From: Sulfurimonas lithotrophica
GTDB taxonomy: Bacteria > Campylobacterota > Campylobacteria > Campylobacterales > Sulfurimonadaceae
Direction of reading: 5' to 3'
Assembly: GCF_009258225.1 (NCBI RefSeq)
Contig: NZ_CP043617.1
Location: forward strand, 62,001-126,000
Length of the DNA stretch: 64,000 nucleotides
Program-made: the position numbers and the translations under genes
The notes under the pieces: generated by a model
The model's input: the letters and a program-made list of their open reading frames with translations, nothing else
Database searches by the model: none
What the model was told of the DNA's origin: nothing
Shown: one piece after another, positions 27,293-44,805 of the stretch
Numbering within the stretch: position 1 is the stretch's first letter
Layout: the number at the start of each line of letters is the position of its first letter

Positions 27293-29248
27293 TTATTCTC
27301 TACCTACCGTTTCTTCATAATAAACGACACTAAGGTTTGTTCCGTCTATTTTTGCTATACCTTGGTAAAGATTGTTCCCATCTAAAGTTTCATAAAAAAC
27401 ATGTCCATAATATACATTATCGACTACATACTCATCAAAATTGTATAATTCAGTATAGTTTCTAGCTTCAAGAGGGAAAACAAAATTAAGTTTATTAAAT
27501 GATAGATTGCCATTTTCTGCTACACTCACTTTAAACATCTCATCATTATATGTGCCGTTGTCTTGCAGTTCAGCTTTTAAATATGTCTCATTATTCATAT
27601 TAAAAAACTCTAAACCTGCATGGTTAGAACTTAAAGAGCCAACTTCAGAAATATTTGTTTCACTGATGCTGTATATAGTAAAATCGTCATTATAATATAC
27701 AGTGCCGTTTATATTTTTAAATGAATTAGAGCCTATACTTATATTATTTGTATTTGGAACATCTGTAACGGTATCGCCATTGCTAATAGAAATACCGTAA
27801 GAACCTGCTTGATTACCTGTTTTGTAGATAACTTTATTTTCATCAAATTTTGTAATGCTGTTAAAGCTGTTGTAAGATGTTACTAAGTTGGTTCCATTCT
27901 CAGTTCCGTCACTTACCCAAAGTTCATTTGAATATTGAAAAAATAGTTTATTTCCAAGCATAAGAGCATCCAAAATCCACATTTCGGTTCCCTGTTGTGT
28001 AACTTCTTTAATTATTTGTGTCCCTTCGCTTGTTCCGTCTGTTATCCATAAGGCATTGTTTGTCGGACCGTCTTGAATACTAAAATATACTTTTGTTTTA
28101 TCTTCGATTTGAAAAAATCTATAAGGGTGAGAATTTCCATCAGGATTAATATTTTTAAGTAGTTTCGTACCATCCACAGTACCGTCACTAACCCATAACT
28201 CATAGTCGTTATCTACACCGGTTAAGCTATCAGCTTTAAAAATTACTTTTGAACCGACTTGAGTCATATTGGATATATAGTCCAGAGTAGTAAGCTTAGA
28301 TGTCCCTTCTTGAGTTCCGTCACTTATCCATAAGCTTTTACCAAGTTCTGTTTTAGAACCAACATTGCCGACAGAGCCTAAAAGGAAGATTGTATCTTCG
28401 ACTAATAAAAGTTCATTAGGTGTAAAAACTGTATCATCAGTCGTTTCAAAATTAATCATTGTCGTATTAATACCATCGGTTGATACTAAATACGTGGCTT
28501 CCGTTTGTGCATCTTCAACAAGCATAAAGTGTTGGTTAGCGGTCTTTATTTGATCAGAAGGATCGGAAACCATACAATAATCTTCTAAAAATCTAGTTTG
28601 GGAAGTTTTTGTTAAAAGATAGATTTCATTACAATTGTCAGTATTTCTTACAGATATAAAAGCCGGATTTACTGGAGGTTCAGGTGGTGTGATATCTAAA
28701 GTTGCCAAAGAATCTCGCATATGCTGTTCAGCTTGGTCCTCATCTACTAAAGAGTTTATACCATCTAGCAATCTTGGAACTATACGATCAAACCTTAAGC
28801 TTGTAAAATCTAAACTGTCTCCTAAAGATTCGATATGTACAGGGTTGGGAGTAATACCGTTAGATAGGTCACCGTCATCATCTATCGTTTGGAGAAGTTG
28901 AGCAAGGTTTAGTGCCGCATCGTGATTATTTTCAAATAGGGTATAAGGTGTTATAACATCACCGCTATTTATTTCAACGCTAACACCTAAAGGGATGTTG
29001 CCGAGCTTGAATGAAACACTGTCGTTTATGTCACATGTAAATTTACCGTCTTGATCTGTAATACCGAGTGTACCGGATGGAGAACATTCATAATTTAAAC
29101 CGGATACAGCCGCATCAATGAAATGCCCAGAAACGCTTGTAGAGTTTTCTGTGGGTATGTATGAATTTGAGCTACTTCCACCTCCACAAGCTACAAATAC
29201 AAACGAAGCTAAAGCCAATCCTAATAATCTACATATTTTAATATACAT
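27293..29248 (-). CDS. ELWxxDGT-repeat lipoprotein
   Basis: The start is placed at ATG 29248, giving a 651-residue lipoprotein with signal peptide and lipobox VFVACG followed by GGSSS. After a short Ig-like N-terminal region (about residues 40-190), the body carries beta-propeller-like repeats with the ELWxxDGT motif: LWISDGTQEGT, ELWVSDGTVDGT, LWITDGTSEGT and ELWVSDGTENGT. Such repeats occur in surface proteins of diverse bacteria with no settled function. It is the last gene of a minus-strand string 78 bases downstream of the LapD-like gene, so surface attachment is conceivable but unproven. Confidence 0.75.
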   Translation of the reverse strand: MYIKICRLLGLALASFVFVACGGGSSSNSYIPTENSTSVSGHFIDAAVSGLNYECSPSGTLGITDQDGKFTCDINDSVSFKLGNIPLGVSVEINSGDVITPYTLFENNHDAALNLAQLLQTIDDDGDLSNGITPNPVHIESLGDSLDFTSLRFDRIVPRLLDGINSLVDEDQAEQHMRDSLATLDITPPEPPVNPAFISVRNTDNCNEIYLLTKTSQTRFLEDYCMVSDPSDQIKTANQHFMLVEDAQTEATYLVSTDGINTTMINFETTDDTVFTPNELLLVEDTIFLLGSVGNVGSKTELGKSLWISDGTQEGTSKLTTLDYISNMTQVGSKVIFKADSLTGVDNDYELWVSDGTVDGTKLLKNINPDGNSHPYRFFQIEDKTKVYFSIQDGPTNNALWITDGTSEGTQIIKEVTQQGTEMWILDALMLGNKLFFQYSNELWVSDGTENGTNLVTSYNSFNSITKFDENKVIYKTGNQAGSYGISISNGDTVTDVPNTNNISIGSNSFKNINGTVYYNDDFTIYSISETNISEVGSLSSNHAGLEFFNMNNETYLKAELQDNGTYNDEMFKVSVAENGNLSFNKLNFVFPLEARNYTELYNFDEYVVDNVYYGHVFYETLDGNNLYQGIAKIDGTNLSVVYYEETVGRE

Positions 29249-29326
29249 GCTAAACCCTTTTTTAGTTAAGTACGCTAATTTTAACAAAATTAAATATTAT
29301 TTTTACTTAAAAATCGGTTTGTGTAT

Positions 29327-31240
29327 TTATAGTATCTCCGTAACACGACCCTGTACTATATATATGTCTTTTTTCTTTAACTCTTCCAACGTTTCCATAT
29401 TCATAGCACCGGTAGCAATTAATGAGATTCCTACAGAATCGGTAATAAGTCTTAAAGCCGATAAACTTTGCTCACTTTGGTTTAAATAATAATCTACCTC
29501 ACCTTTTATATAAGCAGGACGCAGGTCTTGTAAATATTTATAGTCGTGGCTTTCACCGATAAATTCAAATACGGCCATTTCAAAACCGTATTTTTCAAAC
29601 AGCTCTTTATACTGTGCAATAGTTTCCGACTCTTGAGATATAAGTTTATCAGGCATTTCAAATATCAGTTTAAAAGGTAGTTTGGATGCATGAGATTCAA
29701 ACAGTTTTAGCATATGAAGATAAGTTTCTTTTGAATCTAAATAGTCATATGGAAGTCTAAGTGAACAAGTTGAATCTTTTAGTCTCATATCAGGCTGTAT
29801 AAATATCATTTCAAGTATTTTATTATAAATATCATGACCGTATCCGGCTTGATTTGCAGGCGCCATAAACTGACCAAAAGAGTAGGTCTGAGAATCAACA
29901 CTCATAGATATACTAAGGGCATTATGGACATCTTTTTTTGTTCTTGTATCAACTGCTTTGTAGGACAAAAATTCAAATCCGTTTCTCTCAATTGCTTTAT
30001 TTATAATTTCACGCCATGCATCCCTACCCATAACCTCTGTAGCACTCTGTGCATGGTCAAGATGAATTTTACTGTCGCTAAATTTGGCTTGTGCCAATGC
30101 ATTATCGGATAAAGATAAGAGTTTAGCTATATTTTGTGTATAGTTGTATTCATATAGACCTATAGAGACAAACGTTACATCGGTTTCAAGACCTTTTTTT
30201 TCTATAGCTTCATTTATAGAGTCTCTTATAGCTTGAGCTAAATCCGTAGCTTCTTCATCATTGCAATCAGGTAGTAAAATAGAAAATTCCGTACCGTTCA
30301 TACGTGCAACTATCGAATTAAAATAATTGCCGGCAAAAGAATTAAATATTTCGGCAATTTCGCAAAAAAGTCCGTCCACATCCCTGTGACCGATTTTTTC
30401 ATTGGCTTCAATTACACCGGAGACTGCTACCATCATAAGTATGCCGCCCTTTGAAGAAGCATCTATTTTTAAATATGAAGGTAACTTGTCAATAAGATAT
30501 TTTCTGTTTTTAAGTTTTGTATCGGGGTCTATATACTCCAATTCTTTTTGGCGTTTTAGCTCCTCATTACCTTTGTCAAACATCACTTTGACTTTTTGAA
30601 CCATGGTATTCATTCCGACCACTACGTCTTTAAACTCTTTTGTATTTGGTATGTTTGTCTGAGTAATAAACTCGTTTCTAGCTACGGCTTCGGCTTGAAG
30701 CTGAACTTGTTTTAGAGGTTTTAAAACGGCATGAATAAGCAGATACAATACGACTAAAGCAATTATAGTAAGAATAGAAAAAGATATTATAAGATTTTTG
30801 AGTATAGAGTATAGTTGTGAATATGCATAAGATATATCGCTTTGAACATTTAAAATCCCTATCGGGCTCCAGCCGGCAGATACATTGGCACTAGCAATTG
30901 GTGCTTTTATATTTACAAGATTTATGAACCAGTCGGGTGCATTGATATTTTGAATATCGGCTTTTCTGCTATATACGGTCTTACCATCTATATCCTCTAA
31001 AGAGATAAACTGATAGTTACCGCTGTCGAAGTTTGCATTTATCATAGTTGACATCATAGTGATGTCGCCGTTTGCACTGCCAAGAGACAAGCTTAAAGAG
31101 CTAGCGGTGTTTTTTGCATCTTCAAACAATCTCTTTTGTACACCGTCGTTTGCACTTTGAAAATTTAGGATTAAAACGGTTGATAAAATGATAATTAAAA
31201 ATATTGAGAGCATTATTGCTATTTGTTTGAAGAGTGTCAT
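29327..31240 (-). CDS. LapD-like degenerate GGDEF-EAL c-di-GMP receptor
   Basis: A 637-residue inner-membrane protein: transmembrane helix (about 7-27), periplasmic LapD/MoxY-type domain (to about 150) with a GW motif, second helix (about 150-171), HAMP, then degenerate GGDEF and EAL domains. The GGDEF motif reads NGTEF (315-319), the EAL motif is replaced (FEFLSYKAV) and the catalytic DDFG loop is missing. It is therefore a predicted receptor, not an enzyme. In the known Lap system LapD binds c-di-GMP inside the cell and sequesters the protease LapG in the periplasm; a LapG-like gene is found at 37099. Good match in architecture; partner pairing is inference. Confidence 0.8.
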   Translation of the reverse strand: MTLFKQIAIMLSIFLIIILSTVLILNFQSANDGVQKRLFEDAKNTASSLSLSLGSANGDITMMSTMINANFDSGNYQFISLEDIDGKTVYSRKADIQNINAPDWFINLVNIKAPIASANVSAGWSPIGILNVQSDISYAYSQLYSILKNLIISFSILTIIALVVLYLLIHAVLKPLKQVQLQAEAVARNEFITQTNIPNTKEFKDVVVGMNTMVQKVKVMFDKGNEELKRQKELEYIDPDTKLKNRKYLIDKLPSYLKIDASSKGGILMMVAVSGVIEANEKIGHRDVDGLFCEIAEIFNSFAGNYFNSIVARMNGTEFSILLPDCNDEEATDLAQAIRDSINEAIEKKGLETDVTFVSIGLYEYNYTQNIAKLLSLSDNALAQAKFSDSKIHLDHAQSATEVMGRDAWREIINKAIERNGFEFLSYKAVDTRTKKDVHNALSISMSVDSQTYSFGQFMAPANQAGYGHDIYNKILEMIFIQPDMRLKDSTCSLRLPYDYLDSKETYLHMLKLFESHASKLPFKLIFEMPDKLISQESETIAQYKELFEKYGFEMAVFEFIGESHDYKYLQDLRPAYIKGEVDYYLNQSEQSLSALRLITDSVGISLIATGAMNMETLEELKKKDIYIVQGRVTEIL

Positions 31241-31315: not shown

Positions 31316-31852
31316 TTATTTATTAAATACCGCAACACCGTTTATTTCAACATTTTCATCTACACACATAGTAAATCCAAGTAAACAAGGCATCTCTATA
31401 CCGTAATCTTCAACGTTAATTTTTGACTTCGCATCTATACTCAAAATCATATCGTCTTGTGTTATCGTAGCGTTAAAGTCAAGTGCTTTTTTAACCCCGT
31501 GCAGGTCAAGTTCACCTTTTAAAATATATACGCTTGGAGCTTTTGTATCTTCAACGCTTTGTATAGTGTATATACTTTTTGTAAATTTTTCAACTTCTAA
31601 AGTTTCAAGCATATTTTCATCTCTATCGGCATTTTGGCTTTTAAACAGAGCCATCTCCACGGATATAGTACCTTTTAGTGTAGTTATATCATCTCCATCA
31701 ATAGAAAGATTTGTTAGTAGATTGTCGTTTTTAGGATCAATCTTGCTATCACCCAATACACTTGTTAGTCCCATAACAGAACCGCTTTGTAGTTTAAGTT
31801 CACCTGCAAACAGAGATAGAACCAAAATTATAGATAAAACTAAGAACTTCAT
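31316..31852 (-). CDS. YceI-like periplasmic protein
   Basis: A 178-residue exported protein (signal peptide to about residue 16) with the lipocalin-like pattern of the YceI family: alternating strands, ITTLKGTISVEMALFKSQNADRDENML and GELDLHGVKKALDFNATI, where the latter matches the family's typical 'L.lhGvtkpl' segment. YceI proteins bind isoprenoid or other amphiphilic ligands. Two cysteines (MPCLLGFTMC) near the C terminus might form a disulfide. It lies between the LapD-like gene and the end of the oxidase-like operon. Confidence 0.7.
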   Translation of the reverse strand: MKFLVLSIILVLSLFAGELKLQSGSVMGLTSVLGDSKIDPKNDNLLTNLSIDGDDITTLKGTISVEMALFKSQNADRDENMLETLEVEKFTKSIYTIQSVEDTKAPSVYILKGELDLHGVKKALDFNATITQDDMILSIDAKSKINVEDYGIEMPCLLGFTMCVDENVEINGVAVFNK

Positions 31853-31888: not shown

Positions 31889-32794
31889 CTAATGCAGTAA
31901 CTTTGATAACGCCAGTGCTAAACCTGTTCCTGATGCCGCCCACCCTACAAACACCATCACAAAAGATAGGTCTTTTAGACTTGTAAGTTTTGTAAGAGAG
32001 GTAAATACTATTACATTATAGTAAGAGATTACAAAAGGGTAAATAATAGCCAAAGCAAAAGGTAGCTCAAGATAAGAGAGCACATAGCTGAGAACAAAAA
32101 GAACAAATATAAAAAAGTGTTGTTGTTTTTGTTTTGCTTTTATGAAATACGCACTTATCAAACCAAGTAGATGAAAAAAGATAATCGTATATGTATAATT
32201 ATCCCAAATATTTATTCCTTCATGTCTTGAGAGGGTTTCAAATAGATTAGAATCTAGAAATATCCATAGTACAAAAGGGATAAAAGTTATAATATTATAA
32301 TCCGTGCGTTCTATCTTTTGTACTTTAAAATCTTTAAGAGTTAGAGCCGAAAGAAAAACTATAGCTGAGAAAAAAATAGCCATATAAATCCTATCCGATG
32401 CTACGGAAGTGAAATTATAAGTTCCTACAGTATATGCAATTGCCAGTGCAAAAAAAAGGGAGCGTTGTTGATGTTGTTTAAATAGATATATCCCAAGCGG
32501 TGCCATCATGCCTATAGCAAGACCTAGTATAAATAATCCTAAGGGACTATAAGAAGGGTATAAAAACGACATGAAAAGTTGAATACTTAATGCCAAAATT
32601 ATTTTATGTATCGGATTATTAAGTTTTCCCCAGTTAAACCCTGCTAAGATTGTACCGCTGACTCCGCCTATAAAAAGCGGAGAGAGAACCAATATATCTG
32701 AGTTAAAATGTTCAGCTATACCGGTTTGTACAATCAGAAGATAAAAACTTAGCTCAAAGCCAAGAAGCAGTGTAAGGGCTAAAGAGTTTATCAT
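31889..32794 (-). CDS. Polytopic membrane protein (MFS-like), unknown
   Basis: A 301-residue protein with nine or ten hydrophobic helices. The first 100 residues (LALTLLLGFELSFYLLIVQ and the GGVSGTILAG turn) resemble the start of a major facilitator, but the usual length of about 400 and the MFS loop signatures are missing. Its start overlaps the stop of the oxidase-like subunit by 4 bases, so it is probably a partner or accessory subunit of that protein. I cannot assign a substrate. Confidence 0.55.
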   Translation of the reverse strand: MINSLALTLLLGFELSFYLLIVQTGIAEHFNSDILVLSPLFIGGVSGTILAGFNWGKLNNPIHKIILALSIQLFMSFLYPSYSPLGLFILGLAIGMMAPLGIYLFKQHQQRSLFFALAIAYTVGTYNFTSVASDRIYMAIFFSAIVFLSALTLKDFKVQKIERTDYNIITFIPFVLWIFLDSNLFETLSRHEGINIWDNYTYTIIFFHLLGLISAYFIKAKQKQQHFFIFVLFVLSYVLSYLELPFALAIIYPFVISYYNVIVFTSLTKLTSLKDLSFVMVFVGWAASGTGLALALSKLLH

Positions 32795-34335
32795 CTATTT
32801 CTTATCCATAAAAGATATATAAGTGCATAGGAGATATCGTAAAATCCAACCAGCAAAGCGAGTGCATCCAAGCTAGAAACATAAAATAGAGAGAAAAACA
32901 TTGTCCCCGTGATTACACGTGCATACGAGGTCATCTCAGCCAAAAAGTGTGAATGTTTTGAGATTCCTATCAGATGCAATAAACCTACAAAACCCATAAA
33001 TCCAAATACCAAGTAATAATGCGGCGAAAAGTTAAATCCTAAAAAGTCAAAAAGCTGCGGTGCAAAAAGTATAAGTATAATCGCACCAAGACCATCGGAT
33101 GCAAAACCGTTGAGGTGATAAAGTTCTAAAAGAGAAGGTTTTTTGATGCAAAGTGCTTTGTATATATAGTATAAAATAACTCCAAGTGCCAAAAGCCCGC
33201 CAAGTAATCTCAGCCACCAAAATATCTCTATATTTGCGTCTAAAAATCCGGCTTGTACAAAACCTGAAATAGTAAGAGGAAAAAAGATTAAAGCTATAAC
33301 GTAACTCCAAGCGTGTATAAGTTTTTTAGGCAGTTTATAAAAATAACTAAGGATGCTAAGAGACATAAAAAATATTCCAAGCCCTATAGCTACGTGAGCG
33401 TGAGCTACTACTAAATCGTTTCTGTGAAACGGCCATCTGATTTCCGGAATAAAAAGGATGTTCCCTTGAATCATTACAAATAAAAATGCCCATATAGATA
33501 TGATGAGGTAGGGGTGTGACTTTAAACTAAGTTTTGCATCTTTATACCAAATGTAAAGAACAGGTGCGTAAAAAAATGTCAGCCACTGAAAAAACCACTC
33601 TTGGCTGTAAGAAAGCTCTCCGATAAAGATGCGATGAGATACAGAAGCTATATATCCTACAAGAGGTATAATCCAAAGTATATTCAGTCTTGGTTTTATC
33701 TCTTCTTTTGCATAAAGTTTTATCATAAGATAAAAAAGCGGAATAAGCGTAAAACTCATCCCTAAAGTGTTATCACCGTGTGGACCTGTTATAGTAGATT
33801 CAACCTGACCTATTACCGGATTCATTAAAATAATCAGTGCAATCGGTGCAGAGAAAAGTACCGTTTTAGATACTTTTACCCAAACAGGCTGGACTTTATA
33901 TTGTTTTATAGTTTTAAAAATCGCAATTATGTAAAAAATACCGCTAGATGCAAGTATAAAGTTAAGTTCATACGCAAAATCATAAAAAGCAAGTCCACGT
34001 TGAGCACCTAAAAGTATAGAGATCCCAGCCATAAATAAAAACAGATGCCATAGAAAGAAGTAGTTTTTTAAATACTTTGCAGCATCGCTCAGATTTAAGT
34101 TATCTTTTGCAAAAAGTGCAAAAGGCAAGAGAGACAGAGCAAGCATTATCGGACCATACAGCATAAGTGTAATATGCAGACTTCTTGTCGTAACAGGGTT
34201 TAGAAGTGTATTTGAAAAAAGTGAAAATCCAAGAAGTTGTGCAGCATATATAGCACCGACTAAAATAGATATAAAAAATATCCAAGTCCAAGTCGGCAGT
34301 GTTTTTTGTATAAGTGTGTTAAAGTTTTCCATCAA
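32791..34335 (-). CDS. Divergent heme-copper oxidase/NO reductase-like catalytic subunit
   Basis: A 514-residue protein with 12 to 14 hydrophobic helices. Heme-ligand-like histidines are at His54 (RSLHITLMLYGP, helix 2) and the HAH pair His312/His314 (NDLVVAHAHVAIG). The active-site helix has GPHGDNT (His186, Asp188) instead of the HPEVY of oxidases, and His234 and His304 are further candidates. The absence of the oxidase Tyr-His motif argues for the NO-reductase side; gNOR enzymes described for epsilonproteobacteria have a two-histidine, one-aspartate metal site, which could fit. No cytochrome c subunit is adjacent. Superfamily is likely; NO reduction is inference. Confidence 0.65.
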   Translation of the reverse strand: MMENFNTLIQKTLPTWTWIFFISILVGAIYAAQLLGFSLFSNTLLNPVTTRSLHITLMLYGPIMLALSLLPFALFAKDNLNLSDAAKYLKNYFFLWHLFLFMAGISILLGAQRGLAFYDFAYELNFILASSGIFYIIAIFKTIKQYKVQPVWVKVSKTVLFSAPIALIILMNPVIGQVESTITGPHGDNTLGMSFTLIPLFYLMIKLYAKEEIKPRLNILWIIPLVGYIASVSHRIFIGELSYSQEWFFQWLTFFYAPVLYIWYKDAKLSLKSHPYLIISIWAFLFVMIQGNILFIPEIRWPFHRNDLVVAHAHVAIGLGIFFMSLSILSYFYKLPKKLIHAWSYVIALIFFPLTISGFVQAGFLDANIEIFWWLRLLGGLLALGVILYYIYKALCIKKPSLLELYHLNGFASDGLGAIILILFAPQLFDFLGFNFSPHYYLVFGFMGFVGLLHLIGISKHSHFLAEMTSYARVITGTMFFSLFYVSSLDALALLVGFYDISYALIYLLWIRNR

Positions 34336-34948
34336 TCATCTTTATGGTTCTTGTTGCATAATTTTTTATAGCCAAGTCGTGAGAGGCTACTACAACGGTG
34401 GTACCTGCATCTGAAGCCGTTTTTAATAGCTCATATACCAGTGTTGAATTTTTAGAATCCAAACTACCTGTCGGCTCATCTGCAAATATAATTTTAGGTT
34501 TGTTTATAAGTGATCGGGCGAGTGCTACGCGTTGGCGTTGACCGCCTGATATCTCATTTGGATATCTTTTTGCCAAATCAAGTATTCCTAACTTTTCTAA
34601 AAGTTCATTTATATCTTTTTTATGCTTCTCTTTTGCAGCCAAAGCTATATTTTCATAAACGTTTAAATAGTTTATTAAAAAGTGAAATTGAAAAACAAAA
34701 CCGACATTTTCCTGTCTGAAATTATCTATATTTTTGATTTCCTTTACATTTACTTTATCTATTAAAAGCTCCCCTTTACTGGGTTTTAAAAGGGTTGAGA
34801 GGATTGATAAAAGTGTAGATTTTCCACTCCCGCTCTCACCTGATAAAAATAAAAATTCTCCCGCAGATATATTTAGAGAAATATTATGCAGCACTTGTTC
34901 ACCCTCGACATAGAAGTGGGATATATTTTTTAACTCTATCATGCACAT
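34319..34948 (-). CDS. MacB/LolD-type ABC transporter ATPase
   Basis: A 209-residue ATPase with Walker A GESGSGKST near residue 39, signature ISGGQRQRVALARSL near residue 134, Walker B IIFADEPTGSLD and the H-loop in VVASHD. Closely resembles MacB and LolD ATPases, which work with FtsX-fold permeases on periplasmic substrates or lipoproteins. The permease gene overlaps by 10 bases upstream and the oxidase-like gene by 17 bases downstream, placing the pair inside the NO-reductase-like operon. The NosF/NosY-type role in metal-enzyme maturation is an alternative thought without direct evidence. Confidence 0.9.
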   Translation of the reverse strand: MCMIELKNISHFYVEGEQVLHNISLNISAGEFLFLSGESGSGKSTLLSILSTLLKPSKGELLIDKVNVKEIKNIDNFRQENVGFVFQFHFLINYLNVYENIALAAKEKHKKDINELLEKLGILDLAKRYPNEISGGQRQRVALARSLINKPKIIFADEPTGSLDSKNSTLVYELLKTASDAGTTVVVASHDLAIKNYATRTIKMIDGKL

Positions 34949-36012
34949 CCTTGGTTTATCAGGATAATCGGGTCTGTTTTTGAGGCTATATAAGCAGGGA
35001 GAATTGAGCCTACTATAGCCATTGAGATTGTAGATACAAATACATAAAATGCAGTCTGCTTATCTATAGAACCGTTAACGTAGCCTTGAAGCATCTCTAT
35101 ATGTGGAATCAACTCTAAAACGGATATGCTCAAAATTAGGGCAAAACTATATGCAGCTATGCTCATAATTACACTCTCAAAAAAAAGATTTTTAATAATA
35201 AAAAATCTGCTTTTTCCAAGTGCACGCATAATTCCAAATTCCTCTTTACGTGAGTTTACAATCATACTCATAACAGATGCGATACCCATAAGACCCATAA
35301 TGTAAGCGAGTGATGAGATAACCAAAGATGAGTTTTCTATAATCTTAAACTGATTATATTCATCAACAAAACTCTGTGTTGTTTTAACATCTATATCTTC
35401 ACTCATTTTTGAAATTTGAGTTTTTAAGCTCTCTGTCTTATTTGGATTTTTTGAAGATACGAGTATAAAAGAGGCCGAACGGTTAAAAAGCTTCCCTGCA
35501 TCTTCTATATTCATAACTACGCCGCCCTCTTCAAACCCTATCTCACTTGAAAATTTACCCGAAATTTTGAAATGTTTATTTGCTATTTTGACGTCTTTGG
35601 TAAAAATCTGTTTGGCAATATTTTGACCTAAAATAACCTCGCCGTGTTTTGGATAATTACCTTCGTCAAGTTTGTAATGTTTTAGATGATTTTTGCTTAC
35701 ACCGTATATACCGGCTATGGGGAGTTTTCCAACCGGAGAAGCCCCTACTATGACGGCGTAACTCGATTTTGCAGCATCCAAAGCATCTATTTTTTTCCGC
35801 AGATTTATATCTACATTGGAAAAAAACGTATCGGCTATACCTTTTTGGGTTATGATGATATCTCCATCGGTCTTTATCATATTTGAGTACATTGCGATAA
35901 CGCCCTGAGAGATTGAAGAGATTAAAAAAATAGCACTTACGGCTATAGTTATCGATAAAAAAATCAAGAGACTTTTAAACTTGTTTTTGCTTAAAGCTCT
36001 TAATGCTATCAA
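34939..36012 (-). CDS. FtsX/MacB-type ABC permease
   Basis: A 357-residue permease with the MacB fold: N-terminal helix (about 12-32), a periplasmic MacB core domain (about 40-225), and three C-terminal helices with the conserved RKEEFGIMRALGKSRFFIIKN loop. The GIMRALG loop contacts the ATPase. Such exporters act mechanically on the periplasmic side and do not carry substrate through the membrane. Operon position (ATGA overlap with the upstream gene, 10-base overlap with the ATPase) ties it to the periplasmic protein, the DUF3313 lipoprotein and the oxidase-like subunit. Confidence 0.88.
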   Translation of the reverse strand: MIALRALSKNKFKSLLIFLSITIAVSAIFLISSISQGVIAMYSNMIKTDGDIIITQKGIADTFFSNVDINLRKKIDALDAAKSSYAVIVGASPVGKLPIAGIYGVSKNHLKHYKLDEGNYPKHGEVILGQNIAKQIFTKDVKIANKHFKISGKFSSEIGFEEGGVVMNIEDAGKLFNRSASFILVSSKNPNKTESLKTQISKMSEDIDVKTTQSFVDEYNQFKIIENSSLVISSLAYIMGLMGIASVMSMIVNSRKEEFGIMRALGKSRFFIIKNLFFESVIMSIAAYSFALILSISVLELIPHIEMLQGYVNGSIDKQTAFYVFVSTISMAIVGSILPAYIASKTDPIILINQGCA

Positions 36013-36476
36013 TCAAATACCTTTTTTAATTCTTCTTGAGTTGATATATATGAGATACTTTTTACTTTTTTATCTTCAAATCTTACAACACTTATTTTTT
36101 CATCTTTTTTTGGAACTGCATTTTGAAATTTTTCATTATAATGTAAATAGATAAGATGCTTGTATTTTCTAAGTTTAGGAAGTGCAAACATATTTGTAAC
36201 CACTGTAGGCATCTTGTTTATATCTGCAATAAATATAGCTTTTTTCTTTTGCAGAAAATATTTGTTTTTTGTTGCAAGATACTCGTTAACAAGTGCTCCC
36301 GTGTCTTTATCAAAGGCGATAAGCAGAGTTTTTGTATTTAGCGGTATTTTCATTTTACGTGACTTTGGCGTTTCATACTCAAAGTTGTTCAGCATCTGGA
36401 TATCCGAGCCTATCTTTAGGTTTTGTGCATATATAGATGCAAAAGTAATTACTAGAAGTAAAAATATCTTTTTCAT
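36009..36476 (-). CDS. Periplasmic protein, possibly thioredoxin-like fold without CxxC
   Basis: A 155-residue exported protein (signal peptide to about residue 17). The order of strands and helices (TKTLLIAFDKDTGALVNEYL, then KKKAIFIADINKMPTVV and a C-terminal ISVVRFEDKKV strand) resembles a thioredoxin-like fold of the YtfJ kind but has no redox cysteines. Function unknown. It shares an ATGA overlap with the permease and a single-base overlap with the DUF3313 lipoprotein gene, so it belongs to the same operon. Confidence 0.55.
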   Translation of the reverse strand: MKKIFLLLVITFASIYAQNLKIGSDIQMLNNFEYETPKSRKMKIPLNTKTLLIAFDKDTGALVNEYLATKNKYFLQKKKAIFIADINKMPTVVTNMFALPKLRKYKHLIYLHYNEKFQNAVPKKDEKISVVRFEDKKVKSISYISTQEELKKVFD

Positions 36477-37099
36477 TATTTATCTCCCGCGTTTAGTTCA
36501 GATGCGACACTCTCTACCCAAGCATCTATAGAGTCTTTTAAATCATCTATACTCAGATAATCACCGTTTAACGATATAGCTACGTTTTTTACCAAATTTA
36601 ATGATTTTACAACTGTTTTGTTATTGTTTAGTAAACGGTACTCACCGACTAGACGGACAGATTCATCAAGGTATGCATTAAGAGATACTACCGTAATACC
36701 CAAAGCCAAGGGCGAGAGTTGATTCCATTCTTTGTCGTCAAAATGAACTTCCGATGCAGACAGTGCACTTTGCATAACTAAGCTGTCTTTTGTTTTTGTA
36801 TCGGTATTTTTAAATTTTAGCGCCTCTTTTAATCTTGCCGTAGCATATTTTGATATCTCGGCATACAGTTTTTTTTGCACGTCTGTTTGTTCGTTTATAT
36901 CTATAGAAGGTATTACCGTAACATCTTCAATATAGATATTTTTTCTTAGCTCCTTTGCATCGCTTACAAGGACATTACTTGTTTTTAAGTCATCATAACT
37001 TTTAAAAAAGCCCGAGTTTTGAGGTGCTTGCATCTTTGAAGCACAACCGCTTAGCATAGTCAATGTTATCAAAGTTGATATTAAGAGAGTTTGTTTCAT
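36476..37099 (-). CDS. DUF3313-like lipoprotein
   Basis: A 207-residue lipoprotein: signal peptide and lipobox MLSGCAS (Cys19), then NSGFFKSYDDLKTSNV, which resembles the 'SGFL.dYs.L' start of DUF3313 proteins, and a C-terminal DAWVESVASELN helix also seen in that family. The role of DUF3313 proteins is unknown; they sit on the outer or inner membrane facing the periplasm. Coupled by one base on both sides to the LapG-like and periplasmic genes. Confidence 0.6.
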   Translation of the reverse strand: MKQTLLISTLITLTMLSGCASKMQAPQNSGFFKSYDDLKTSNVLVSDAKELRKNIYIEDVTVIPSIDINEQTDVQKKLYAEISKYATARLKEALKFKNTDTKTKDSLVMQSALSASEVHFDDKEWNQLSPLALGITVVSLNAYLDESVRLVGEYRLLNNNKTVVKSLNLVKNVAISLNGDYLSIDDLKDSIDAWVESVASELNAGDK

Positions 37100-37737
37100 T
37101 AGATTTTCCTTTTCTTGATGTTTATTTGAAGTTCATCCCATTTTTTGTGAGATTTATTTTGTTTGAGTTTTTTGCCTGTACCGCTTTTTGAAGCTTTATA
37201 TAAAGAATCCCCGTTAAAGTTGTAAATAGGAATCAAATCTTTTCTTTTTGAAGCAGGAAATATACGGCGATTGTAATTATCAAGAACCAAGGGCTCACTT
37301 TTTGGTGTTTTAAAGTATGTTAGAACCATATGCGGTGCTTTGAACTTTGTAGAACGGACATAAGTAAAAAAAAGTTTTTTGGTATCGACTCCAAGATATT
37401 TTAATGCAAAATATTTTGCTATAACGTAGTCTTCGCAATCACCTTTGTCCTTACCCAAAAATTCATATGGAGTAGCCCAATAATCCTTTTTTTTATAAAC
37501 TTTTATATCGGAGGAGTATTTAACACCGTTATAAAACTCGTTTACGGTTTTGAGTTTCTCCATGTCGGAGGAATCGGCTACGCTGTCCAAAGTTTTTTGC
37601 TGATAAAAGAATCTTTTTTTTGCAAACATTTTATACTTTTTTCCAATTCTATCAAGAGTTGGCTTATCTACATAAGGCTCTTTTGCATTAATGCTTGAAA
37701 ATAATAAAAATATTAGAAAGATACTTTTAAAAATCAT
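37099..37737 (-). CDS. LapG-type transglutaminase-like cysteine protease
   Basis: A 212-residue exported protein (signal peptide to about residue 18) of the bacterial transglutaminase-like cysteine protease family. The catalytic triad is visible: Cys101 in GKDKGDCEDYV, His136 in APHMVLTY and Asp153 in VLDNYN. LapG cleaves large surface adhesins near their N terminus and is held inactive by LapD when c-di-GMP is high. A LapD-like receptor gene lies 6 kb downstream on the same strand. No giant adhesin gene is in the window. It is the first gene of a tightly overlapped seven-gene operon that contains the oxidase-like subunit. Confidence 0.82.
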   Translation of the reverse strand: MIFKSIFLIFLLFSSINAKEPYVDKPTLDRIGKKYKMFAKKRFFYQQKTLDSVADSSDMEKLKTVNEFYNGVKYSSDIKVYKKKDYWATPYEFLGKDKGDCEDYVIAKYFALKYLGVDTKKLFFTYVRSTKFKAPHMVLTYFKTPKSEPLVLDNYNRRIFPASKRKDLIPIYNFNGDSLYKASKSGTGKKLKQNKSHKKWDELQINIKKRKI

Positions 37738-37753
37738 ACTAAATTATAGCAGA

Positions 37754-39259
37754 TTAATGTTGTCTTTTATTGAACCCTGATGTGCCTTTTTTTGCTTCTA
37801 TATTAAAACCCTCGGCATACTCTTTTAGGTAGTATGGGACGGAACGGCCTTTTAGTTTCATCATATCTTTTAGCATTAACTTTGAAATCACTTCTGCTTC
37901 GAGTTTTTTTACTTCTTTAAGATATGTGAACATAAGTTCACCCAGTCTTAAAAGCGATATCTTATATGTTGAATCCGTTTGTGAGTATATCCATGCAGAA
38001 AATTTATAAAAATTCTCAAATACGCTACCGTTTTGCCAAATAAGTTTAACGGAGTTTTTGAAATTTCCGCTGTTATATGTCAAATCCCAAAATCTGGCAA
38101 AACGTTTCATTATTTGAATATCTTTAAAACTAAGCAGGTCATTTTTTAATATATCGTAAGGAGGATAGTCGCTATATACCATACCGAAATCTATGTCATG
38201 TCTGTTTATATATGTACCGGAGAGTTTTTTAAGTATGCCGATTTGAATCTCGCATGAACTAAGTCTGACAAGCTCATCCAAGTTTTTGCCAAAACTCTCT
38301 AATGATTCACCCGGAAGTCCTACTATCAAGTCAAGATGGATATGTGCAGATGTGTCTTTTTCTAAAAATTCTATGTTTTGTTTGATTTTATCAAGTTTGA
38401 GGTTTCTTGATATATTGTTTGCAACATCCAAGTTAAGTGTCTGGATGCCTATTTCAAGCTGTAGTGCTCCGTGTGGAAATTTTTGTATTTTTTCCTTTAA
38501 AGATGCAGGAAAATGATCGGGTATTACTTCAAAGTGCGCAAAATACGGCGGCTCTTTTTCTAAAAAGAAATCTAAGATTATGTTTGCTGTTTTGATGTTT
38601 ATGTTAAAAGTTCTATCGACAAATTTAAAAGCTCTTGCACCCCTGTTCCAAAGTTTTTGAAACTCATCAAGTGTTTGTTCGATATTAAAAGTTCTTACTC
38701 TCTCATCCATTGACGATAAACAAAACTCACACTCAAAAGGACAACCGCGGGATATTTCAACATAGATATATCTGTTTTTTATATCATCATCGCTGTAAAA
38801 CTCATATGGAAGTTTTAACTCTTTTAGATTTGGCATAGTTTGTTTTATGATTTGTGTTTTTTGTTTGGTTTTTTTTGAGATTTTTATCTCTTTGCACAGC
38901 TGGTAAAAGGCTAAATCCCCTTCGCCTTGTATTATATAATCTGCATCTGAATAATCAACTCTAAAAGGCTCATGTGAAACCTCCGGACCACCTAAAACTA
39001 CAGTAGTTTCGGGAGAGACTTTTTTAAGTATATGTATAAGCTCTCTAATCTGGGATGCATTCCATATATACGTACCTAAACCTATGATGTCAGGGTTTTC
39101 GTTTAAAAGTTTTTCCGCAACGCTTTGGAGAGAATCATTTATGTTAAATTCCAAAATTTTTGCATTTGTTTGAAACTCGTTAAGGTTTGCGTATATATAA
39201 CGCAATGCCAAAGACGAATGCGTATATCTTGAATTTAGCGTCGATAAAACAATTTTCAT
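37754..39259 (-). CDS. B12-binding radical SAM protein (DUF4080 type)
   Basis: A 501-residue enzyme with an N-terminal cobalamin-binding-like Rossmann domain (about 1-140, including IIGLGTYIWN and VVLGGPEVSHEP), then a radical SAM domain with the cluster motif CPFECEFC around residue 178, and the C-terminal DUF4080 region. The usual DxHxxG B12 motif is absent, as in many of these proteins, so B12 binding is base-off or lost. Substrate unknown. Located 16 bases upstream of the LapG-like gene and 5 bases after the GGDEF-EAL gene, on the same strand. Confidence 0.85.
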   Translation of the reverse strand: MKIVLSTLNSRYTHSSLALRYIYANLNEFQTNAKILEFNINDSLQSVAEKLLNENPDIIGLGTYIWNASQIRELIHILKKVSPETTVVLGGPEVSHEPFRVDYSDADYIIQGEGDLAFYQLCKEIKISKKTKQKTQIIKQTMPNLKELKLPYEFYSDDDIKNRYIYVEISRGCPFECEFCLSSMDERVRTFNIEQTLDEFQKLWNRGARAFKFVDRTFNINIKTANIILDFFLEKEPPYFAHFEVIPDHFPASLKEKIQKFPHGALQLEIGIQTLNLDVANNISRNLKLDKIKQNIEFLEKDTSAHIHLDLIVGLPGESLESFGKNLDELVRLSSCEIQIGILKKLSGTYINRHDIDFGMVYSDYPPYDILKNDLLSFKDIQIMKRFARFWDLTYNSGNFKNSVKLIWQNGSVFENFYKFSAWIYSQTDSTYKISLLRLGELMFTYLKEVKKLEAEVISKLMLKDMMKLKGRSVPYYLKEYAEGFNIEAKKGTSGFNKRQH

Positions 39260-39264
39260 TTAAT

Positions 39265-41706
39265 TTATAATCCATAATACTTATTTAGTTCAATTTTAAT
39301 TTTTTCATGCAACTTCATAATCTTTTGAAAGTAGATATTTTTATCTATCTCTTTGTTATTAACTACTTCATTGGCTAAAGCATGTATTTTTCCATGTAAA
39401 TCATCGATATTTTTAACGGATTCACTTGAAAAATATTTTTTTGCATCGTTTTTTAACCATTTTGCAAAACTGCATTTGTGTTTGTCTAATTCCGGATATA
39501 CATTGTTTACAGGGTCATCTAAATATTTTTTTAAATTTTTTATCCATTGTTTGTGTTCTACCGTAGCATATAAAGCCGAGTTGTCGTGAAAAAACTTTTT
39601 GGAATTTTCTTCCCAGTCTTTGTACCCTTTATATGACTTTAACCACTCTATAACTTCATTTGATGGCATAGGTTTAGATAAAACATAACCTTGTGCATTA
39701 TAACAGCCCAGTTGTATCAAAGTGTTTCCATGCTCAATACTCTCTACACCTTCGGCTATTACGTCACATCCAAATGCTTCTGCAAGACCGAGTGTAGCTT
39801 CAAGTATGGAAAGACTTGCTCTGTCTTCTAACATATCCATTACAAAGCTTTTATCTATTTTTAGGGTATTTATACTTAAGTCTTTAAGGTAACTAAGTGT
39901 AGAGTAACCCGTACCAAAATCATCCAAAGCTATTTTAAAGCCAAGTTTTTGAAAGGTTTTAATCATTCTTTGTGCTTGCAAAATATCATCAAAAGCATGA
40001 GTTTCCAGTATCTCAAACTCTATTTCGCTTGGAGATATATTTGGGTATTTTTCCAAAAGAGATTTTAAAAGGTTAAATGTTTTTATCTCTTTAAACTCAT
40101 GCGCGCTTATATTTATGCTTAGTGAAAAATCATAACCTGCTTCTTTCCATTTGGAGAACTGATTAAAAGCCGAAGTTACAACCCATTCACCTAAAGATAA
40201 CATAAGTTCTTTTTCCGTATTTATTTGAGGTAAAAACTGATCTGGATAAAGCATCCCTCTTTGCGGATGCTCCCACCTTAATAAAGTTTCAAATCCTATG
40301 ATTTTGTTTGTTCTCATATCTGCTTTTGGTTGGTAGTGTAAAACAAAGTGATTTTGTTTTAAAGACTGTTCAAAATCTTGAATAATATGCAGATGCTCTT
40401 TGATTGATGAATCAATATCTAAGTTGAATATATGATATTGGTTTTTCCCGAGTTTTTTTGCATCGTACATAGCCTGTGCAGCTTGACGCAGTAAAGCTTC
40501 AGGGCCTATCTCATTTTGTTGTGGATAAAAAGTAACCCCTATGCTTGAGGTTATAGTAGATATTTGCGAAGCATCTTTAGGGTTTGGGATATTTTGTTTT
40601 AAAACCTCTAAAAAACGATTTAAATGAAGCATAATATTTTTTGTATTATCTAAATTTGCCAAGGCTACTACAAATTCGTCTCCGCCGAGCCTTGCAACAA
40701 AATCTTCTTTATTAAGAAGAGTTTTTATTTTTTGCGATATTTTAATCAGGACTAAATCTCCTGCTTCATGTCCGTGTTTGTCATTTATATCTTTAAATCC
40801 GTCTAAATCTATATACAATAAAGCAAGATGTGTATTATCTTCCTTTGTTTTGTATAAAAGTTTTTGAATAAGTTCGTTAAATAAAAATCTATTGGGCAGA
40901 TCCGTTAACATATCATGTTTAGCCGTATAATCGAGCTCTTTATTATGTTGCTCGATTTTAAGTCTCGATTTTTTTATAGCATCTAACATAAAGTTAATTG
41001 TTTTTGCCAAAGAGGATATCTCTTTTGGTCCGCTAAAGTCGATTCTGTTTATAGGTATTCCGTCATTATCTTGTATTGAAAGGGTGTATGAAATATTTGA
41101 TATCGGCTTGATTATAAAATAGTATATGCTTAAGTAAAGCAAAAAAGTTAAGATAAATGTAATTAAAATAAAATCAAAAATAGAATCTTTAATAAGTCGG
41201 TTTAACTTATTCTCAAGATTTTTACCTGAAATATAAATGCTAATAGAACCTATTTCTTCGCCTTTTGATGAGAGTACTTTTTTGCTTTGAAAAAAAAGTG
41301 CTTTTGTTGTAAGCTTTTTATGTTGTTTGTTTGATGGATCGAAATCTACTATTTTTCCGGAACTTAGTTTTATTTTACCGCTTATATAAGCATCGCTACT
41401 AAGTATTTTTCCCATATTATAATCTTTGACTATGATGGCAAGGTGTTGACTCAGTTTCATCTCATTATTTAAAAGCTTGTCATATTCGTTAACGGCATAC
41501 GATTCGATAAAGGTTGCAATATTTTTTTCCAAGACATCTATTGTTTTTATCGAGTCTGTTCTCATTTTTAATACGGTATCGGTTTTAATAGTGTTGTAAG
41601 TGGAACTTGTATGTAGGGCTAAAACTACCAATACCGTAAAAGTGATAGTTAGGGCTAGCGTAAAATACAGGGATGGTTTATATTTTAGTTTTAACATTTT
41701 TTTCAC
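39265..41706 (-). CDS. GGDEF-EAL protein with C-terminal CZB domain
   Basis: An 813-residue membrane protein: helix (about 13-32), periplasmic region, second helix (about 178-198), HAMP-like segment, intact GGDEF (ARLGGDEFVV, about residue 340), EAL domain (GFETLLRW, DDFGTGYS and AEGVE motifs present, so phosphodiesterase activity is possible), then a CZB zinc-binding domain over the last 110 residues with HKCSFAKW and an HxxxH pair (HGKIHALA). CZB domains sense zinc or hypochlorite. Its start overlaps the stop of a periplasmic binding protein gene by 4 bases, suggesting the binding protein feeds the sensor. Confidence 0.92.
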   Translation of the reverse strand: MKKMLKLKYKPSLYFTLALTITFTVLVVLALHTSSTYNTIKTDTVLKMRTDSIKTIDVLEKNIATFIESYAVNEYDKLLNNEMKLSQHLAIIVKDYNMGKILSSDAYISGKIKLSSGKIVDFDPSNKQHKKLTTKALFFQSKKVLSSKGEEIGSISIYISGKNLENKLNRLIKDSIFDFILITFILTFLLYLSIYYFIIKPISNISYTLSIQDNDGIPINRIDFSGPKEISSLAKTINFMLDAIKKSRLKIEQHNKELDYTAKHDMLTDLPNRFLFNELIQKLLYKTKEDNTHLALLYIDLDGFKDINDKHGHEAGDLVLIKISQKIKTLLNKEDFVARLGGDEFVVALANLDNTKNIMLHLNRFLEVLKQNIPNPKDASQISTITSSIGVTFYPQQNEIGPEALLRQAAQAMYDAKKLGKNQYHIFNLDIDSSIKEHLHIIQDFEQSLKQNHFVLHYQPKADMRTNKIIGFETLLRWEHPQRGMLYPDQFLPQINTEKELMLSLGEWVVTSAFNQFSKWKEAGYDFSLSINISAHEFKEIKTFNLLKSLLEKYPNISPSEIEFEILETHAFDDILQAQRMIKTFQKLGFKIALDDFGTGYSTLSYLKDLSINTLKIDKSFVMDMLEDRASLSILEATLGLAEAFGCDVIAEGVESIEHGNTLIQLGCYNAQGYVLSKPMPSNEVIEWLKSYKGYKDWEENSKKFFHDNSALYATVEHKQWIKNLKKYLDDPVNNVYPELDKHKCSFAKWLKNDAKKYFSSESVKNIDDLHGKIHALANEVVNNKEIDKNIYFQKIMKLHEKIKIELNKYYGL

Positions 41707-42686
41707 TTATTTTGTTTTAGTCCCAGAACGTTTCTTTTTATCAGAGAAATATTTTCTTGCATATTCTCAGCCGATATTGCCAAAACGGGAACTTGCTGAT
41801 TGAGTTCTACTTTTAAACCCTTCAGATGCGAGTCTAAACTTAAAACCGCTTTTTCACCTATAAGAAAAGGTTGTTGCATCGCTGCCGCTGTCAATATACC
41901 TTTTGGTATTAAATCCATAAAACTAGGTTCGGCATCAAAACATATAAGTAGTATTTTATCTTTTTTTCCGCTTTTTATTACGGCATCTAATGCAGCTTGG
42001 TATTTGTCTGAACCTTGTAGCCAGATTGCCCGTAGTTTAGGGTCATTTTTTATAAGTTTTATAGAAAAGTCATATGTCTCGGCATATGAAAAATCTACTT
42101 GTTGGTATAGATTTGAACTTTGTATTTTATGTTGGCTTAAAGCTTTCATAAAACCTGCCGTTCGTTCCTTGCCGTTATCTCTGCTTTGAGGAATGGCTAT
42201 AATACCAACACTGCCTTTTTGCCAATTACGTTTATACATCTCTTTGGCAAGTATTTTTCCTATTTTATATGCACCGTCTTTATTGTTTGAAGATATATAT
42301 GAAATATATTTTCCACCTTGCGTTCCTATATCTGCAATTACGACAGGGATATGAGCATTTTGTGCCAGTTTTAAAACAGTAACCGCAGCAGAAGAGTTAG
42401 TAGGAGAGAGTATGATACCGTTTACTTTTGTTTTTATTGCATTTACCGTATTCTCAAGCTCTTTTTTTGCACTGTTATCCGCACTGTATATATCTATTTC
42501 GTATCCTAGTTCATTTGATTTTGAACTTATACCTTTTGACATAATATTCCAAAACGGTATATTCATATCCGAAACAAGATAAGCTATTTTTTTATTAGAG
42601 GCATCAATATCCAATGCGTATATATGAGTGTTTGAGAAAAAAACTATTGCGAGCGTAAAATACGTTAAAAATCTGTAAATAAACAT
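41703..42686 (-). CDS. Periplasmic sugar-binding-like (Peripla_BP_4/TorT-type) protein
   Basis: A 327-residue exported protein (signal peptide to about residue 24) of the type I periplasmic binding protein fold (IAYLVSDMNIPFWNIMSKGI start, GIILSPTN strand, ISSNNKDGAYKIGKILAKEM and WLQGSDKYQAALDAV). TorT-like proteins act as periplasmic sensors. The coupled downstream gene is a membrane GGDEF-EAL-CZB protein with a periplasmic domain, so a ligand-dependent control of c-di-GMP is likely. No ABC permease is adjacent, arguing against a transport role. Ligand unknown. Confidence 0.85.
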   Translation of the reverse strand: MFIYRFLTYFTLAIVFFSNTHIYALDIDASNKKIAYLVSDMNIPFWNIMSKGISSKSNELGYEIDIYSADNSAKKELENTVNAIKTKVNGIILSPTNSSAAVTVLKLAQNAHIPVVIADIGTQGGKYISYISSNNKDGAYKIGKILAKEMYKRNWQKGSVGIIAIPQSRDNGKERTAGFMKALSQHKIQSSNLYQQVDFSYAETYDFSIKLIKNDPKLRAIWLQGSDKYQAALDAVIKSGKKDKILLICFDAEPSFMDLIPKGILTAAAMQQPFLIGEKAVLSLDSHLKGLKVELNQQVPVLAISAENMQENISLIKRNVLGLKQNK

Positions 42687-42917: not shown

Positions 42918-44351
42918 TTATTTTCTATATTCCAGTAACATTTCATCCAATAAATTGTATAACTTACTTGAATTATTTTCTAAATTTAAAAAATAATCGA
43001 CTATTTTTTTAGGATTGTCATATTTTAATACCTTGCCATCTTCAATAAACTCTTTTACCTTTATAGCCGCGTTATGGACTTCACTATGAGGTTTATCTAA
43101 ATCTTTAAATGTTTTTAGATGACCAAAACGCTCTTTACCCTCACTTAAATACCATTTACCCATTCTACAATTTTGGTGATCACTTACCTTATATGATTTA
43201 TTTTGTTCAAGCGTTGCCGAATATGCATTTGATTTAAACAAGATATGGTCAACTTTTACGAGTGTAGTATATAGTCTGTTCTGGATATCTACAGCTACAT
43301 CGGAAGAACTTTGTGCGTGTTGGTTTAATTCGCTAAATGTTCCCTCGAAATTTCCTATAAGTTCCGAAGAACTTTGTGCAATGTCGGAAATATTATCTGA
43401 ATTTGAACGCATTTCATTTGCCTCTTGTTGAAGAGTAGATATATTCATTTCTATCTCGCTGGTAGCTTTTTGTGTACGTTCAGCAAGTTTACGAACTTCA
43501 TCGGCAACAACGGCAAATCCACGACCGTGTTCACCCGCACGAGCAGCTTCAATAGCGGCATTTAGTGCAAGAAGGTTTGTCTGATCGGCAATGTCTTTAA
43601 TAAGTCCTACAACCTCTGATATTTCCCTGCTTCTACCCTCTAAAGATATAATAGCTTCGTGAGAAGATGATATAAGCTCAACCAAATTACTTAATCTATG
43701 GGTCATGTCTATTACGCTGTTTAAACTTTCTTGAGATTTATTAGCCGTATTGTCCGAGAGTGAAACGATTTTACTGGATTCACCTTGTGCCTGAATCAAA
43801 TCTTTTTGTATAATATTTAAACCAGAAGCAATACCACCGCCTAGGGTGCTTAATTGTTCAGATAGTTCACCTCTTAATTTAGTTTCATATCCTGCTGCAA
43901 TAGAATCGATAGCTTCGGTTAGGTGTCGGGCAGTAGATCTAAACGCACCGTGAAGTCCGGATGAGTAATTTTTTCTATATGTTTTCCCCACGGATGCATT
44001 TTGTATAGTTGTTTCTGTATCTCGCATAAAAGCTTCAAGTTGGTCTAATACATCGTTAACATCCCAGGCAAAATTTGAAAATTCCGAATTGTCGTTAGGT
44101 ATGTTTGTAATACGATTTTCAAGTTTTCCAAGTGCCGCTGCTTTTAGTACTACGGAAGCTTCTTTACAAATATGCAGGTTATAATCTTGATGTTTTCGAT
44201 GAGGAATAAACATTGATATTATAATTATAACTACACTCAAAGCTGCCAAAATAAAATCAGAAACGATAAATGCATAAACGGTTACGGCGATTAAGCCTGT
44301 AAATAATACAAGATAGTTCTTATCCTTGAAGAGAGATGACAAGTTCATCAT
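42918..44351 (-). CDS. Chemoreceptor with CZB domain (CetA-like)
   Basis: The start is chosen at ATG 44351, with AAGGAG six bases upstream. This 477-residue protein has two adjacent N-terminal membrane helices with no periplasmic domain, a HAMP-like region, the conserved chemotaxis signalling hairpin ([20 protein letters not shown]) and a C-terminal CZB domain with HQNCRMGKW and HSEVH. It lacks its own PAS domain; the PAS gene directly upstream overlaps by 32 bases, as in Campylobacter CetA/CetB energy taxis pairs. CZB domains in chemoreceptors sense zinc or hypochlorite. Confident for chemoreceptor; the CetA assignment is by analogy. Confidence 0.88.
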
Positions 44352-44805
44352 ACGATACTCCTTTTTCAAATAACAAATTTTCTAAAATTTTTTCCGAAGC
44401 TTCCATTCCGCCCGTTTTTTCAGCTTCAATCATTTTTTCGTATATCGGTTCAATAATTTTTATTGCTTGGGGGTTTGGTCTTCTTCTAACGGAGTAATAT
44501 CCTATAATATTTTCGTTTTCATCTAATGAAGCGGTTATGTTTGCATAGACCCAGTAACCGTTTGAATTTTTTGTTTTGTTTAAAACAAAAGCAAAAATTT
44601 CCTCTTTTTTTTCAATTCTGTCCCAAAGCAACTTGAATACGATTTTTGGCATTTTGGGATGTCTTATAATACTGTGGGGTTTTCCAAGAAGTTCGGCTTC
44701 TGTGTATTCTGCCATGTCCATAAAAATTTTATTGACATAAGTAATTTTACCCTTTTTATCTGTTTTTGAGACTATAAAGTCTTCATCTTTCATCTCTTTT
44801 ATCAC
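44320..44805 (-). CDS. Aer/CetB-like PAS sensor protein
   Basis: A 161-residue cytoplasmic protein that is a single PAS domain of the Aer kind ([18 protein letters not shown], then the conserved [17 protein letters not shown] segment and the [10 protein letters not shown] strand) with a C-terminal helix. Aer and CetB PAS domains bind FAD and report redox state to a chemoreceptor. The CZB chemoreceptor gene starts within its 3' end, so the two form a split receptor. FAD binding is expected from the family and cannot be verified from this sequence alone. Confidence 0.82.

Follow-up and report, generated by a model that had tools for sequence, protein, structure and literature searches.

A conserved Campylobacterota envelope cassette that combines an FtsX-type ABC transporter, a YceI lipocalin and a heme-copper-oxidase relative, placed between lapG and lapD in Sulfurimonas lithotrophica

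Introduction

Type VII (MacB/FtsX) ATP-binding cassette (ABC) systems perform work within the periplasm or remove lipophilic molecules for periplasmic partners, and it is these partners that set their function (PMC12646458). YceI lipocalins have ubiquinone-8 or octaprenyl compounds as ligands, and the gene for a cytochrome b561 is often found with theirs; this cytochrome has been proposed to return the bound quinone to its reduced form and thereby to quench lipid peroxyl radicals (PMC9113575). Both kinds of component meet in the locus described here, a run of genes in a 64,000-nucleotide stretch of Sulfurimonas lithotrophica (contig NZ_CP043617.1, positions 62,001 to 126,000; hereafter the window), where a conserved cassette of envelope genes, one of them encoding a relative of the heme-copper oxidases, stands between lapG and lapD.

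The cassette resembles the Type VII systems LolCDE-LolA and YbbAP-TesA in its FtsX-fold permease, its FtsE/LolD-type ATPase and its periplasmic lipid-handling partner, and differs from them in that this partner is a YceI lipocalin, that further membrane proteins are present and that LolA and TesA are absent. With LcoA-BcnA of Burkholderia (a cytochrome b561 and a YceI lipocalin) it shares a predicted multi-heme membrane protein encoded near a YceI lipocalin; here, however, the heme protein is of another superfamily, and an ABC transporter and a protein of about ten transmembrane segments (the 10-TM protein) are added. No b561 is encoded in the cassette, the genome's two PF01292 genes being far away, and the resemblance to LcoA-BcnA would be functional only. 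The LapD-LapG adhesin-release system is represented by both of its genes with their defining domains, but seven cassette genes part lapG from lapD. We found no description of this gene combination, or of an oxidase family without the metal-B site, in the literature searched, which did not cover the main nitric oxide (NO) reductase survey. Genome annotation counts heme-copper family proteins as oxidases or NO reductases, and a genome carrying a member of a widespread Campylobacterota family with heme ligands and no B-metal site would wrongly be credited with a potential for respiration or denitrification.

Results

Homologues of the oxidase-like protein occur in 63 of 228 genomes of the family to which S. 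lithotrophica belongs and in 34 of 298 genomes of its class. The FtsX permease and ATPase genes adjoin the oxidase-like gene in all 34 fetched loci in which the latter is intact, spread over five families (f1, f4, f7, f10 and f11), and the neighbourhood survey that an earlier, model-made note on this stretch had proposed for the ABC-oxidase pair thus finds it linked in relatives. Genes for the 10-TM protein and YceI are also present in these loci, barring a few rearranged cases (no YceI nearby in L063; four inserted genes in L081). The cassette, which recurs in 34 of 34 intact loci, consists of a periplasmic protein, the FtsX permease, the ATPase, the oxidase-like protein, the 10-TM protein and YceI, to which a DUF3313 lipoprotein is added in several Sulfurimonas loci; part of families f4 and f11 has the alternative order 10-TM-YceI-FtsX-ATPase-oxidase. 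In the class sample the 10-TM protein (33/296) and the oxidase-like protein are found in the same genomes, and the 10-TM profile matches 68 of 228 genomes of the family. Further genes are linked to the cassette in other families. An LpxG/YaeI-like phosphoesterase gene is found at 20 loci, and a two-component system of the heavy-metal/HprR type contributes the response regulator (TIGR01387, E 4e-75) and kinase (TIGR01386, E 2e-71) that are cassette neighbours in f7 and f10. A search of the plasmid collection gave no homologue. Since all open reading frames of the window locus have homologues elsewhere in conserved order, the seven-gene arrangement is far beyond chance, and the cassette is a conserved Campylobacterota envelope cassette.

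Judged from its alignments, the oxidase-like protein is a member of the heme-copper superfamily that has kept the heme-ligand framework and lost the three-ligand metal-B site. The window protein scores under the Pfam COX1 cut-off (E 0.001), but 29 of 31 family members match, with a best E-value of 6e-12. Profile comparison with hhalign places CcoN of the cbb3 oxidases nearest (E 2.6e-5 local, 8e-7 global), followed by NorB (9e-4) and then by gNOR (0.016), whose profile was built from two sequences only. An hmmsearch of the PDB gave CcoN 6xkw (E 5e-4) as the sole match at a meaningful E-value. The AlphaFold2 model, for which the window protein and two relatives (L003 and L004) were used, is of low confidence (predicted local distance difference test, pLDDT, 53), and its top six Foldseek matches are all CcoN chains. 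Because the model is poor, ligand positions were judged from alignments with CcoN, NorB and gNOR.

In the joint alignment, RSxH54 corresponds to the helix-II heme His and VVAHAH to the helix-X pair, and H54, H312 and H314, which align with the heme ligands of CcoN, NorB and gNOR, are invariant in all full-length relatives. At the level of the fold, the superfamily is defined by a helix-II His to the low-spin heme and an HxH on helix X, and both are thus in place. The motif GPHGD188N, in which His186 is also invariant, lies opposite WWYGHN of CcoN, indicating that Asp188 replaces the helix-VI CuB/FeB His. The helix-VII His-His pair is absent and helix VII has no conserved His, so that the triad of a catalytic member (a helix-VI variant plus the helix-VII pair) is incomplete. 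Position 234 is His in 6, Tyr in 12, Ile in 9, Thr in 7 and Trp in 1 of 35 sequences. The earlier note had called this protein a heme-copper/NO reductase relative with unusual ligands, which agrees with these results, and had named Asp188 and His234 among the candidate FeB ligands, of which the former sits at the helix-VI position and the latter is found in too few relatives to hold. CcoN shares the helix-II, -VI and -X framework and the three heme His with the oxidase-like protein, but differs in its helix-VI CuB His and helix-VII His-His, in its CcoO and CcoP partners, and in sequence (14-18% identity in structural alignments).

The oxidase-like gene has been lost repeatedly. At least three genomes (G006, G007 and G190) carry an otherwise intact cassette from which this gene is cleanly deleted, and a remnant of its start is seen in G006 and G007. 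In the decaying cassette of G098 (L072:7195-8891), an internal in-frame deletion leaves 86 amino acids of the oxidase-like protein and yceI contains two stops, with the ATPase, FtsX and 10-TM genes open. Two further genomes (G161 and G073) are undecided cases, at a contig edge or fragmentary. These losses argue that the oxidase-like protein is accessory to a core of ABC transporter, 10-TM protein and YceI.

In the window genome and its sister G213, lapG and lapD have the cassette precisely between them. Six other Sulfurimonas genomes have the radical SAM gene, lapG and lapD together without the cassette (L148, L151, L152, L153, L154 and L155); L152 has one opposite-strand gene between the radical SAM gene and lapG, while L148 and L154 share with the window the outer flanking genes on both sides. 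It is therefore only in this lineage that the cassette stands between the two genes. Contact of LapG with the cassette is limited to the window genome and G213, and LapD adjoins it additionally in L004; in G088, lapGD map to 0.05 Mb and the cassette to 2.62 Mb. LapG is thus outside any functional unit with the cassette genes, and two unrelated units are joined here. A meaningful combination of LapG with the oxidase, a pairing that the earlier note had singled out as unfamiliar, is not supported by this comparison. In the tree, the window and G213 cassettes are sister to the remaining Sulfurimonas cassettes, which makes relocation within the lineage more likely than a foreign origin, while those of two other genus-mates (G164 and G122) group with family f7, which suggests transfer.

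Discussion

The reading that we favour, tentatively and at less than an even chance, is that the Type VII ABC system extracts an isoprenoid or other lipophile for the YceI lipocalin, with the putative di-heme protein as an optional redox partner. We infer the transfer to YceI from the partner roles of Type VII ABC systems, the quinone and octaprenyl binding of YceI proteins and the linkage of the genes. ATP-driven mechanotransmission by the ABC pair would draw a hydrophobic molecule, be it an isoprenoid, a quinone or a damaged lipid, out of the inner membrane's outer leaflet, and this presumed cargo would be handed to YceI in the way that LolCDE passes lipoproteins to LolA. Electrons from menaquinol would reach the predicted di-heme membrane protein, which would use them to hold the cargo, or a YceI-bound quinone, in the reduced state, the part proposed for the cytochrome b561 LcoA next to YceI lipocalins. 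Such a redox step would be accessory, given the repeated loss of the gene, and LapG and LapD would work apart from the cassette, in adhesin release. A more specific form, which we consider a long way short of probable, is that a metal-stripped heme-copper protein has been reused as a transmembrane electron conduit or redox gate for ABC-driven transfer of quinones or isoprenoids to the lipocalin; in a variant, His186 and Asp188 may form an unprecedented metal site with a chemistry other than NO reduction.

Several observations weigh against lipophile transfer to YceI. YceI is the sole adaptor or chaperone of known function in the cassette, and the 155-amino-acid periplasmic protein and the 10-TM protein are without known fold. 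Heme content, cargo and the activity of the oxidase-like protein and of the cassette are predictions from sequence. The three genomes with a clean deletion of the oxidase-like gene retain an intact YceI, and the pairing of YceI with the heme protein is therefore not obligatory. The cassette of one Sulfurimonas clade is found some 8-12 kb away from the nir-nor cluster, so that a role in denitrification would fit too; in three such loci (L156-L158, from G105, G198 and G091) it is on the opposite strand to nirS and the nir-nor cluster, with one to four genes between. Should the more specific form above be true, the cassette would be a Type VII ABC system of a new kind, one of whose subunits derives from an oxidase. 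If it moves or protects quinones, a single system would link the extraction of lipid at the cost of ATP with a lipocalin and with an electron carrier of oxidase descent. The cassette supplies a testable set of partner genes, natural gene-loss strains included.

Among the rival explanations, a single regulated adhesion-respiration module of LapG with the oxidase and ABC genes would suit the overlapping genes and a transcript that in this lineage probably runs from lapG through lapD, but the cassette-free adjacency of lapG and lapD in six genomes, two of them with identical flanks, the distance between cassette and lapGD in G088 and the confinement of LapG-cassette contacts to two genomes leave it highly improbable and already largely refuted. 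We also regard it as quite improbable that the oxidase-like protein is a gNOR-like NO reductase with unusual FeB ligands, assembled or protected by the ABC and other gene products. Membership of the heme-copper superfamily, the proximity to the nir-nor cluster in one clade and Asp188 are consistent with it, since gNOR (norGH) likewise has Asp at the helix-VI His position, where it is listed as an FeB ligand (PMC8756737). In gNOR, however, the His pair of helix VII is retained and a gene for subunit II is present, and two genomes of family f8 show that Campylobacterota gNORs keep both: their gNOR-like two-gene units (L126 and L127; about 192 plus 542-553 amino acids) have the helix-VI Asp, the intact helix-VII pair and the subunit II gene. 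The oxidase-like protein has the Asp without the His-His pair; among the three families compared its profile similarity is weakest to gNOR, represented by two sequences; and the cassette has no recurring subunit II, cytochrome c or cupredoxin gene. The lack of a cytochrome c also separates it from cNOR, which is recognised by a NorC cytochrome c partner and an FeB Glu/His set, and the genome already has a genuine NorCB elsewhere (L002), beside a cd1-type nitrite reductase homologue, with CcoNO at L001. The cassette shows no association with NirS (28/62 versus 81/166, Fisher p 0.66), and the remaining cassette is kept where the oxidase-like gene is cleanly lost. Membership of the gNOR, cNOR or eNOR type, the families that the earlier note had proposed for alignment, is thus unsupported in a comparison that covered CcoN, NorB and gNOR, with His234 in so few sequences and the helix-VII pair gone.

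Two further explanations concern the ABC pair itself. The cassette might handle heme or copper, as an HrtBA-like heme exporter or an aid to cbb3 maturation in which the oxidase-like protein would be a heme-binding chaperone or sensor. HrtBA is also an FtsX-type ABC system, CcoN is the nearest relative of the oxidase-like protein, and the two-component system adjoining the cassette in f7 and f10 is of the heavy-metal type. A service to cbb3 is nonetheless hard to reconcile with the COX1 matches in 114 of 121 class-sample genomes, nearly all with a CcoN-like score, when the cassette is found in about 11% (34/298); the permease profile matches MacB-like, LolF and LolE chains in the PDB, with no HrtB at E<1; and YceI carries lipid and is no known heme carrier. 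We consider this explanation improbable. Somewhat better placed, though still unlikely, is a MacB-like efflux or lipoprotein-release system with the oxidase-like protein as a passenger. The same permease matches, the dispensability of the oxidase-like gene in at least three genomes and the adjacent DUF3313 lipoprotein in Sulfurimonas speak for it, but the conserved linkage to YceI and the 10-TM protein over five families is atypical of MacAB or LolCDE, and the recurrent neighbours include no recognisable MacA adaptor or TolC gene.

Locus layout and neighbouring genes

The seven overlapping genes reported in the earlier note, together with its identification of LapG and of an FtsX-type ABC transporter, are confirmed as seven minus-strand open reading frames at 31889-37737 (Table 1). 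In the order of transcription the overlaps are 1 base (lapG/DUF3313), 1 (DUF3313/periplasmic), 4 (periplasmic/FtsX), 10 (FtsX/ATPase), 17 (ATPase/oxidase-like) and 4 (oxidase-like/10-TM). The run extends further, with yceI following after 36 bases and lapD another 75 bases on, and the radical SAM gene lies upstream of lapG across a gap of 16 bases. The oxidase-like gene probably begins one codon after its annotated TTG start, at an ATG (34332) that gives 513 amino acids, as in most Sulfurimonas relatives.

Table 1. Genes of the lapG-cassette-lapD locus (positions in the window).
Feature	Position	Strand	Evidence and remarks
B12-binding/radical SAM protein (DUF4080)	37754..39259	-	Pfam; native lapG neighbour, outside the cassette; adjoins lapG in empty-site genomes
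LapG periplasmic cysteine protease	37099..37737	-	NCBIfam LapG E 2.9e-52; PDB 4u65 E 1.5e-40
DUF3313 lipoprotein, lipobox SGCA	36476..37099	-	Accompanies the cassette in Sulfurimonas
155-aa predicted periplasmic protein, cassette member	36009..36476	-	N-terminal signal-like helix; conserved family A5
FtsX/MacB-type permease, Type VII ABC	34939..36012	-	Pfam MacB_PCD 1e-14, FtsX 1e-13; hydropathy
ABC ATPase, FtsE/LolD/MacB type	34319..34948	-	Domain-library matches
Heme-copper-oxidase-superfamily protein without helix-VII CuB/FeB ligands	32791..34335	-	Alignments, COX1, profile comparison
About 10-TM membrane protein, 301 aa, no known family	31889..32794	-	Co-occurs with the ABC genes
YceI-type periplasmic lipocalin, final cassette gene	31316..31852	-	Pfam YceI (PF04264) 5.7e-17; conserved position
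LapD cyclic di-GMP receptor, LapD_MoxY_N-HAMP-GGDEF-EAL	29327..31240	-	LapD_MoxY_N 3e-31 plus GGDEF, EAL; native lapG partner

Each cassette part except two falls in a known superfamily. The permease has four transmembrane segments and a periplasmic core domain by hydropathy, and with its FtsX domain and the LolD/FtsE-like ATPase it has the defining features of a Type VII ABC system. The cassette YceI combines the PF04264 domain with a signal peptide (hydropathy). For DUF3313, the window protein gives a weak match (E 0.009) and its orthologue a clear one (E 2e-11). Searches of Pfam and the PDB gave no match for the 155-amino-acid protein, and profile and family searches of the same two databases none for the 10-TM protein, whose count of about ten segments is a by-eye reading of hydropathy and alignment. 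A thioredoxin-like fold considered for the 155-amino-acid protein found no support (AlphaFold2 pLDDT 48, no fold match). LapG aligns with PDB 4u65 in the Cys, His and Asp motif regions, in keeping with the Cys-His-Asp residues of Peptidase C93, and scores under the strict NCBIfam equivalog cut-off (177 versus 320 bits); LapD, which has all its defining domains, likewise scores under its equivalog cut-off.

A second, canonical YceI is encoded elsewhere in the genome (G000:C1:1581827-1582312, L171; E 1e-45), the cassette YceI being a divergent member. Immediately downstream of lapD, at 27293-29287, lies a gene for a 664-amino-acid predicted lipoprotein without a Pfam match. On the other side of the locus, at 39265-42686, a gene for a Peripla_BP_4 substrate-binding protein overlaps one for a GGDEF-EAL protein that has a CZB zinc-binding domain at its C-terminus, and a methyl-accepting chemotaxis protein with a CZB domain comes next, at 42918-44369.

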